A stretch of 64,000 bases of DNA from Weissella viridescens (GTDB lineage: Bacteria > Bacillota > Bacilli > Lactobacillales > Lactobacillaceae), in assembly GCF_001437355.1 (NCBI RefSeq), contig NZ_JQBM01000001.1, forward strand, positions 288,294 through 352,293, given 5' to 3'. Of the stretch, positions 17,046 to 18,330 are shown piece after piece; positions within the stretch are counted from its first letter, which is position 1; each line of letters opens with the position of its first letter. Both the position numbers and the translations under genes were made by a program. The notes below the pieces were generated by a model. The model had not been told where the DNA came from. It did no database searches and was given only the letters and a program-made list of their open reading frames with translations.

Positions 17046-18218
17046 CTATCTTTTTCTTAAACACGTAACCGTCAGTATAAGCATTAATACAATTAATGCT
17101 CCAACATAAAGTGGCAAGGCGAAGGCCGTGCCGTTATGCATTAAACTCATGCCATAAGTCATCAAGCTAATCATCACGTAATAGGCAAACCCAAACACAC
17201 CACTGGCAGTCCCAATAATATTTTCATATCCAACCAAAGCATCATTCAGCACCAATGGCAAAATGGTGTTCAGTCCGGTAAAAACGATAAAGAAAGCCAC
17301 TAGGAACAGTAGACTGCTGTGCATCGTCGCACTTAGGCAACCAACGCCAACACCCAGCCCACTCACAAGCAGACTCAACATGATAATTCGGTATGAAGTC
17401 AAATACTTCACCACATAATTCGCGCACATCGCCCCAACAATACTAGATAACGCAATCACCATCCCCGCGATACCGTAATGCATAGCGTCCATGCCATACA
17501 TTTGCATCAAGACAAATGGTGCCTCCGCATAAAAGCTAAACAGAATCCCGTTAATGCCCGCAATCAAAACGGCATAAGCCCAAACTCGCTTATCTTGCGC
17601 AAGAATTTTCGCAGCTTGCCAAATTGAAACCGACTGCTCAGTCGCCTTTGGTTCCATTGTTTCCGGCAACTTACCATAACTATATATCAAAATCATAATC
17701 GCCATGCCAATAAGCACGGAACAGACACTTTTGAATCCGAAATATTGTTGGATGATTCCCCCAATAAATGGCCCCAGTGCTGGTGCTAAGGCCATGGCAC
17801 CGCCGACTTTGGCGAATACTTGGGCGCCTTTCACTCCGGAAAAGCTTTCCCGCATAATTGTTTGCGTGACAACTGATCCGACACTGGCGCCAAAGGCCTG
17901 CACGAGTCGGGCAAGTAGTACCCAACCAAATTCCGGTGCTGCAAATAAGCCGATGTTACCGATAAGATAGACCAAGATACCTAGGAGCATCGTTGGTCGT
18001 CGACCCCATCGGTCTGACAACTGTCCCCAAACTAAAACCCCAACGGCAAATGCCATGAAGTAACTTCCCATCAAAAGTTGGGCGGTTTGTGCGGTGACAT
18101 GAAAATCTCGACTGATTTCCGGTAATGCTGATGTGAAGATCGTTTCACTAATTTGTGGAAACCCCACAAGTACAATCAATAGAATGATTGCTGGACTATT
18201 TTTCTGGACGTTTTTCAT
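17046..18218 (-). CDS. MFS drug exporter, Bcr/CflA-like (DHA1)
   Basis: 390 residues, 12 predicted membrane segments. The loop 2-3 motif WGQLSDRWGRRPTML and motif C-like GGAMALAPALGPFIGG (antiporter signature) are intact. Proton-driven export of drugs such as chloramphenicol, bicyclomycin or others is typical; the substrate is not set by sequence. The start at 18218 has TAGGAG eight bases upstream. Its start codon lies inside a 13-bp inverted repeat whose other arm follows a 14-codon leader ORF, so expression is probably controlled by translation attenuation. Confidence 0.86.
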   Translation of the reverse strand: MKNVQKNSPAIILLIVLVGFPQISETIFTSALPEISRDFHVTAQTAQLLMGSYFMAFAVGVLVWGQLSDRWGRRPTMLLGILVYLIGNIGLFAAPEFGWVLLARLVQAFGASVGSVVTQTIMRESFSGVKGAQVFAKVGGAMALAPALGPFIGGIIQQYFGFKSVCSVLIGMAIMILIYSYGKLPETMEPKATEQSVSIWQAAKILAQDKRVWAYAVLIAGINGILFSFYAEAPFVLMQMYGMDAMHYGIAGMVIALSSIVGAMCANYVVKYLTSYRIIMLSLLVSGLGVGVGCLSATMHSSLLFLVAFFIVFTGLNTILPLVLNDALVGYENIIGTASGVFGFAYYVMISLMTYGMSLMHNGTAFALPLYVGALIVLMLILTVTCLRKR

Positions 18219-18258
18219 TTTTTTCTCCTAATATTTTTTAATCTGATGAAAAACGTCC
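18206..18258 (-). promoter_or_regulatory. Inverted repeat sequestering the exporter start (translation attenuator)
   Basis: On the minus strand GGACGTTTTTCAT (18258-18246) pairs perfectly with ATGAAAAACGTCC (18218-18206). The second arm begins with the exporter start codon and the 27-base loop holds its TAGGAG site. The first arm begins immediately after the leader ORF stop. A ribosome stalled near the end of the leader would cover the first arm and open the exporter start. Confidence 0.75.
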
Positions 18259-18303
18259 TTAGTCACTTACTGTTGCAGACATAATAAATTCTGAATAATT
18301 CAT
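18259..18303 (-). CDS. 14-residue leader peptide upstream of the exporter
   Basis: ATG at 18303, TAA at 18261-18259, encoding MNYSEFIMSATVSD. A strong site (GAGGAG, 18315-18310) lies six bases upstream. Its stop codon abuts the first arm of the inverted repeat, the geometry of ermC and cat leader peptides. The segment FIMSATV is loosely like the FVISTV of the ErmC leader, which may be chance. No other role is evident. Confidence 0.7.
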   Translation of the reverse strand: MNYSEFIMSATVSD

Positions 18304-18330
18304 ATTTTTCTCCTCTTTTAAACCATATAA

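Follow-up and report, generated by a model that had tools for sequence, protein, structure and literature searches.

Among the described systems that resemble the arrangement reported here are cat/cmlA and ErmC. In the chloramphenicol-inducible cat and cmlA a short leader ORF precedes a single hairpin that closes the downstream start, and the 5' arm of the hairpin lies in reach of a ribosome stalled on the leader. In ErmC a leader ORF and a sequestered start are likewise switched by a stalled ribosome, at codon 7-8 of the leader ErmCL. The locus analysed here lies in a 64,000-nucleotide stretch of Weissella viridescens DNA (the whole stretch is called the window). It shares with cat and cmlA the leader ORF, the single hairpin and an arm within the reach of a stalled ribosome (Table 1), and with ErmC the leader ORF, the sequestered start and, as modelled, the stalled ribosome as switch. 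It differs from ErmC in the peptide, in the place of the stall, which must fall at the end of the leader, and in having a single strong hairpin. On the evidence of comparison and fold modelling the locus is probably a cis-acting single-hairpin translational attenuator of the cat/cmlA kind, in which a stall on the leader would open the start of an exporter gene. The likeness to cmlA extends to its product, an exporter related to that of the window, which gives a weak match to the CmlA/FloR model. The CmlA stall motif KNAD (from an excerpt of PMC10192921) loosely resembles PAD/PAN at leader codons -5 to -3 here (leader codon numbers count back from the 5' arm, whose first codon is 0). Unlike the leaders of cmlA and cat, to which no sequence homology was shown, leaders of the window type go with a single exporter in many genera of the class; the score of this exporter in the window lies far below the CmlA/FloR cut-off.

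The uORFs of the ARE-ABCF genes cplR, vmlR, lsaA and lmo0919 are similar in being genome-encoded and conserved ahead of intrinsic resistance genes in Gram-positives (excerpt of PMC10201436). Those uORFs have 3-4 residues and go with drugs of little context specificity (same excerpt, PMC10201436), whereas the leaders described here have at least 14 residues and a conserved interior, and the window hairpin is no terminator. Listeria rli80/hflXr also has a 14-aa leader ORF before a resistance gene, but the transcriptional attenuation and the RLR macrolide motif reported for it are absent from the window (both as given in an excerpt of PMC6310831).

The exporter locus of the window

The exporter passes the Bcr/CflA model TIGR00710 (232.6 bits, cut-off 200.9), fails the CmlA/FloR model NF033134 (126.8 bits, cut-off 450) and lies below the cut-offs of the EmrD and TcaB protein family models. 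The leader TAA directly abuts the 5' arm of the stem. Since GGACGTTTTTCAT is the exact reverse complement of ATGAAAAACGTCC, the two form a perfect 13-bp stem, with a 27-nt loop, and the 3' arm reads ATG AAA AAC GTC C, which is the start of the exporter. The sequence-only reading of this DNA had described a 14-codon ORF with a strong ribosome site ending exactly at a 13-bp perfect repeat, the exporter start in the distal arm and its ribosome site in the loop, and all of these elements were found in place at the positions listed in Table 1.

Table 1. Features of the leader, hairpin and exporter locus, in positions of the window.
Feature	Position	Strand	Basis or remark
Strong hairpin with U-run, probably the terminator of the upstream gene	18368-18331	minus	fold -24.4 kcal/mol, z -5.5
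Leader ribosome-binding site AGAGGAG	18316-18310	minus	sequence, SD scan
Leader ORF MNYSEFIMSATVSD, 14 codons, ATG at 18303, TAA ending 18259	18259..18303	minus	predicted ribosome-stalling peptide
Hairpin 5' arm GGACGTTTTTCAT	18258-18246	minus	sequence, fold, covariation
In-frame vestige GRFSSD and stop, after the leader TAA	18238..18258	minus	sequence
Exporter ribosome-binding site AGGAG, in the hairpin loop	18229-18225	minus	sequence
Hairpin 3' arm ATGAAAAACGTCC, exporter start codon and codons 2-4	18218-18206	minus	sequence, fold
Bcr/CflA-family MFS exporter, 390 aa	17046..18218	minus	TIGR00710, Pfam MFS_1

RNA folding, a check proposed together with that reading, gave a strong hairpin: alone, it folds at -15.9 kcal/mol (z -5.8, 0/200 shuffles equally good). 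The whole 141-nt stretch folds at -23.2 kcal/mol (z -2.5, 3/200 shuffles equally good), with one strong hairpin and a weak 7-bp hairpin within the leader. A mechanical listing gives the window 71 ORFs of 100 aa or longer; of the perfect stems over their starts, the 13-bp one is the longest and the next has 7 bp. The same genome has four other exporter-protein matches, and the stems over their candidate starts are of 6 bp or less.

The hairpin was also considered as an intrinsic terminator, and this was rejected because the sequence has no U-run behind the 3' arm; a simple terminator scan covers loops of 3-8 nt only and is uninformative on a hairpin with a 27-nt loop. That scan did not call the upstream hairpin with a U-run (Table 1), which ends 14 bases ahead of the leader ribosome site and leaves scant room for a promoter between them. 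The exporter promoter may perhaps lie upstream of this terminator-like hairpin, which would then be part of the 5' UTR and a second control.

Past its TAA the leader frame of the window goes on as GRFSSD, and GRFS lies within the leader in most relatives, so that the window leader is probably an older, longer leader cut by a stop. Weissella viridescens UCO-SMC3, the only close-relative locus in the contig scan, has an exporter with 97% protein identity to that of the window and an identical leader peptide. Exporter codon 2 is AGA in this strain instead of AAA, by which an A-U of the stem becomes G-U and the pairing is kept.

Leaders and stems in related bacteria

A similar leader frame precedes the exporter in 148 of the 150 homologue genomes that were read (86 Lactobacillaceae, 45 from the rest of the order and 19 from the rest of the class). 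In Lactobacillaceae the exporter was present at E <= 1e-60 in 86 of 397 genomes, and the upstream region was read in all 86; in 85 of them a leader frame is followed by a stem. The exception (L022, genome G343) has no leader, and its upstream sequence differs. Stems were short in six loci of the family, with 7 contiguous pairs in L046, L070, L077, L082 and L087 and 8 in L017.

The Lactobacillaceae leader peptides vary (MNYSQFIQSATVSG, MELSNIMACMPANDEGRFSAK, MKYEQILVCVAVDGKGRFSAN, MSTYVSFITCATVNGKGRFSAN and others). Parsing by the arm pattern succeeded in 78 of 85 upstream regions, the region of genome G169 being read apart from the 85; the unparsed regions (L022, L046, L070, L077, L082, L089 and L090) all show a leader except L022. 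In the 78 parsed leaders, codon -7 is Cys in 66 and Ser in 10 (Ser in the window), codon -5 is P, T, A or S, codon -4 is V in 48 and A in 30 with no other residue, codon -3 is mostly N, D or S, and codon -2 is mostly G (49/78) or D (21/78). Codon -1 is unconstrained and is a stop in 9/78, from five genera, with the window among the nine. The ORF passes through the 5' arm in 69/78, and in most relatives the arm encodes the leader residues GRFS. From leader start to arm there are 15-16 codons in 76/78 as parsed, and 15 codons in L018 and L083 with an earlier GTG start. The constraint at codon -4 reaches the codon itself, which is GTA or GCA in 78/78, compared to an A-ending background of 24% among the Val/Ala codons 8-50 of the exporter. 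At L044 and L059 the conserved leader start position, behind a ribosome site, is ATC, and among all loci read L165 has ATA there; it is possible that leaders with ATC, ATT or ATA at this position have non-standard start codons or are decaying.

Outside the family the leaders take another form. The order sample had the exporter at E <= 1e-40 in 56 of 295 genomes, 45 of them outside Lactobacillaceae, and a leader frame was present in 44 of these 45. The peptide contains PP[FLI]P in 42 (for example MNFYERIKIMVPPFPCEGCFFPR) and PAFP in one (L161), while the leader of L101 (MMLKRITRTTVNDLGCLAS) is nearer the Lactobacillaceae form. L148, L153 and L158 lack a standard leader start codon (ATT/ATA). 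At L096, the one exception, the stem GGGUGUUUUU/AAAAACACCC is present and a clear leader start is absent (ATT, uncertain). Most order loci have the stem GAUGUUUUUU/AAAAAACAUC; judged by eye and not by a formal count, U-A here takes the position of a C-G in GACGUUUUUC/GAAAAACGUC. In the class sample the exporter was present in 20 of 299 genomes, 19 of which are others of the class; PPFP or PPIP leaders were found in 19/19, with a stop directly behind in 18. The stem is of the order type in L117 and consists of 9-10 bp of other sequence around the exporter start in L118-L126 (TTGAGATTT/AAATCTCAA); no comparable stem was found in L127-L135 (9/19 class loci). The last Pro codon is CCC in 51 of 61 PPxP-type leaders, and the first two Pro codons vary. 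Judged by position, exporter and stem, homology of the Lactobacillaceae and PPxP leaders is plausible.

Some loci outside the family have further peculiarities. In genus g57 (L109, L110 and L136), repeat-like insertions of about 100 nt, made up of GCTAGCTCTTCGGAAAAAAGATAAAA and a mirror stretch, lie between the leader and the exporter ribosome site, and L112-L116 also have longer loops. In several of L118-L135 the leader is preceded by C-rich stretches, and pairing of these with the exporter ribosome site, which is G-rich, could occur (for example CCCCCTAT and ATAGGGGG), possibly a second layer of RNA structure. L168 (G494) and L159 (G580) have PPFP leaders ahead of decayed or split exporter frames.

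The best-scoring plasmid relative of the exporter (43% identical) is encoded on an 89.8-kb Mammaliicoccus sciuri plasmid and has its own PP-like leader, so chromosomes are not the only place where the arrangement occurs. A plasmid-cassette origin of the leader itself was rejected, as the leader DNA had no credible match in the plasmid collection (best E 0.4).

Leader and exporter are closely linked. A covariance model of leader and hairpin, searched under strict filters that weak copies may escape, found 84 copies among the 397 family genomes, one per genome. Of these, 83 belong to the 86 exporter genomes, where by coordinates each sits at the start of the exporter and on its strand (in G169 the protein match used for this check starts at residue 44). 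The 84th copy, assigned by reading, is in G016, whose exporter is below the protein cut-off. The exporter genomes without a covariance match are G343 (the locus L022), G035 and G050, of which the last two carry the other leader form, and no other genes were found behind the modelled leader in the 397 genomes. Of the 295 order genomes, 36 have one match each to the pattern I-M-x-P-P-[FLI]-P: 34 at exporters, one before the decayed exporter frame of G494 and one read as chance. In the class there were 16 matches in 16 of 299 genomes (9 at exporters and 7 read as chance). The reversed pattern gave none among the matches listed, and this pattern search of the order (295 genomes) and the class (299 genomes) found no other genes behind a PPxP leader.

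Over codons -14 to -2 the leader frame is free of stops in 78/78, about seven of the nearest codons having been required open by the parse itself, compared to stops in 68 and 47 in the other two frames. In close pairs these codons have a pN/pS of 0.34 (0.15 for codons -10 to -2 of the leader frame), where the other two frames give 1.3 and 1.8; with distant pairs let in it is 0.66, compared to 1.2 and 1.1, all of these being descriptive figures since the pairs are not independent. Going by these numbers, the Lactobacillaceae leader peptide looks selected.

Covariation was analysed in 77 of the 78 parsed leaders (one identical row was dropped). Both sides change in 8 of the 13 stem pairs (15 cells), with 0/500 shuffles as high; these shuffles ignore relatedness, and four A-U cells at the foot of the stem all come from one genus (g25). 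When the 3' arm was slid, paired cells dropped from 87.6% to 39.5-57.8% and double-changed pairs from 8 to 2-4, but with slides of -1 and -2 the number of double-changed cells rose from the 15 of the true register to 23 and 20. Exporter codon 3 is AAC in 76/77 and codon 4 is GTC in 77/77 relatives, counted in those 77 of 85 regions where codon 3 encodes N or S and codon 4 encodes V (excluding L017, L022, L036, L079, L084, L088, L089 and L090). The synonymous entropy of codons 3-4 is 0.0, compared to 0.36-0.99 in codons 8-45. In L036, codon 4 is GCC and the 5' arm has the matching change. The stem covers the exporter initiation region as in a leader-peptide translational attenuator, and has covariation support. 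The sequence-only reading had proposed such an attenuator on a Bcr/CflA-family exporter and had asked for a comparison of relatives: the leader is conserved and the pairing is kept with compensating changes, both computational outcomes being opposite to what would speak against the proposal, and together with the TIGR00710 match they support it.

Stall geometry and alternative explanations

Computation shows the leader and the hairpin, their conservation, the covariation, the linkage to the exporter and the geometry, while the stalling itself, the inducer and the substrate are inferences. Without inducer, ribosomes would clear the leader and the hairpin of 11-13 bp would re-form, leaving the exporter start closed, its start codon and the next three codons (2-4) lying in the 3' arm and its SD in the loop. 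A ribosome stalled on the last conserved codons of the leader, about codons 12-14 in the window, would have its 3' edge over the foot of the 5' arm; this would open the stem and allow translation of the exporter. As nascent-chain arrest signal we read the conserved residues directly before the stem.

The cost of opening the region -14 to +13 was calculated with the mRNA blocked up to the 3' edge of the stalled ribosome (P-site first base +16) and the rest folded, and was averaged over 72 of the 78 leaders. The mean unpaired probability of the start codon serves poorly for this purpose, since in most relatives only the G of the start is paired. The mean cost was 13.5 kcal/mol without ribosome and, in the model, 12.1, 7.3, 5.3 and 4.3 kcal/mol with the P-site at codons -5, -4, -3 and -2 respectively; it was 5.9 kcal/mol when the 5' arm was permuted. 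In the window the modelled cost dropped from 8.3 to 2.6 kcal/mol at P-site -3. The effect of the stall sets in at codons -4 to -2 (window codons 12-14), where the conservation of the peptide ends. At P-site -3 the modelled exposure of the exporter SD drops to 0.40, from 0.76. In some relatives the part of the arm that the ribosome leaves free can pair with the exporter SD, which may make the opening less clean than the mean cost implies.

Against an attenuator count the short stems of six family loci, the nine class loci in which no comparable stem was found, the missing leader of L022, the two slides with more double-changed cells and the poor match to the phenicol rule described below. A further point against it is that 69 of the 78 ORFs cross the 5' arm, so ordinary leader translation would also open the stem briefly. 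This crossing favours plain translational coupling, in which leader translation melts the hairpin and passes ribosomes to the exporter, with the exporter level tied just to leader initiation and no inducer-specific stall. Some leaders lack a standard start codon, as if the rate of initiation counted, which agrees with coupling as well. However, the stop directly before the arm in nine leaders from five genera would break the melting, and coupling does not need conserved leader residues (pN/pS 0.34, compared to 1.3 and 1.8). We consider coupling alone unlikely.

The bias at codon -4 (GTA/GCA in 78/78, compared to 24% A-ending codons in the exporter background) and the CCC of the last proline in 51/61 PPxP leaders, where the first two vary, would suit sensing of an amino acid or tRNA, that is, slow decoding of Pro CCC in PPxP leaders and of GTA/GCA in Lactobacillaceae that opens the exporter without any drug. 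This is quite unlikely, as the leaders have no run of a single residue as in amino-acid attenuators, codon -5 varies (P, T, A or S), the Cys found at -7 in 66/78 is Ser in the window, and control of an exporter by starvation would be odd. The leaders, mostly of 14-27 aa, do not have the length to emerge from the exit tunnel, which makes a membrane-insertion sensor of the MifM/SecM kind unlikely.

The sequence-only reading had spoken of an ermC/cat geometry, of which the cat half agrees with our results and the ErmC half does not. An ErmC-type macrolide sensor would be a four-segment attenuator, with 1:2/3:4 and 2:3 as mutually exclusive pairings and an IFVI-like arrest near leader codon 8, and the window offers it a loose likeness of FIMSATV to the FVISTV of ErmCL and, in the fold, a weak second hairpin within the leader. 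The likeness did not survive the comparison with relatives: most lack it and have FIQSATV, FIPCATV, IMACMPAN or ILVCVAVD instead. An IFVI-type arrest motif is not conserved in them and is geometrically ineffective in the model, where a stall at the corresponding codon 7-8 (P-site -8 or -7) keeps the opening cost at 13.6-14.3 kcal/mol, as without ribosome, and leaves the exporter start closed. An ErmC-type sensor is therefore very improbable. An RNA thermometer or other self-acting hairpin with an incidental small ORF could draw on the A+U-rich upper stem and the U5 tract closing the start codon, but is hardly credible with leader frame, SD, spacing and peptide all kept across the family.

Candidate inducer and meaning of the leader family

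The preferred reading, attenuation by a stall on the leader, calls for an inducer. Drugs that halt translation just after initiation are tied to uORFs of 3-4 residues, while macrolides, phenicols and oxazolidinones stall by context (excerpt of PMC10201436). To judge from the sequences, conservation that reaches to about codon 14 suits the context-specific stallers, and the inducer is likely a context-specific ribosome drug. A ribosome-targeting drug as inducer or exporter substrate, which the sequence-only reading had implied, is a conjecture. It would be a sequence-dependent elongation staller (a phenicol, an oxazolidinone, a macrolide or an unknown natural product) that the pump would export in turn. 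Among these, chloramphenicol and linezolid favour a penultimate alanine, less so serine or threonine, and the preference of linezolid holds regardless of the alanine codon (excerpt of PMC8987054); glycine on the incoming aminoacyl-tRNA counteracts chloramphenicol (excerpt of PMC10192921). A P-site at -3 would put Val or Ala (codon -4) in the penultimate position and, in many leaders, Gly in the A-site. The residues of the modelled stall site (V/A at -4, mostly G/D at -2) would match the phenicol rule, in the form these excerpts give it, poorly. For these reasons, and because the -4 codon is always GTA/GCA, a phenicol is a possible inducer but not the obvious answer.

A wider reading, which we offer tentatively, is that the leaders may be one old arrest-peptide family kept with the exporter across much of the class. 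It would have two main forms, C-x-[PTA]-[VA]-[ND]-[GD] in Lactobacillaceae and PP-[FLI]-P elsewhere, an arrest dependent on particular tRNAs (GTA/GCA at -4 and CCC at the last proline) in addition to amino acids, and a ribosome ligand outside the known drug-context rules.

In Rfam 15 nothing at E <= 5 overlapped the leader or the hairpin, and no match reached the gathering threshold in the loci of 10 relatives; NCBIfam had no match for six leader peptides. In the openly licensed literature the leader family is not described, among the matches listed, and it is not named in the excerpts seen of PMC6310831, PMC8079631, PMC10219788, PMC10192921, PMC10201436 and PMC8987054; subscription literature lies mostly outside this search, which makes 'undescribed' provisional. 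Leader-peptide translational attenuation is a known kind of control, and within it this family, provisionally and apparently undescribed, stands out by how widely it occurs, by its tie to a single exporter and by constraint at the level of codons.

If the attenuator reading is true, a widely kept leader-peptide switch is tied to one exporter in the class, and in the conserved peptide nature has left a mutational record of an arrest sequence. The rules of drug-dependent stalling, now stated in amino acids, could be extended by the constraint on codons near the stall site. The inducer would show what the exporter defends against, and the leader would be a sign of cryptic, inducible efflux in lactobacilli, which are used in food.
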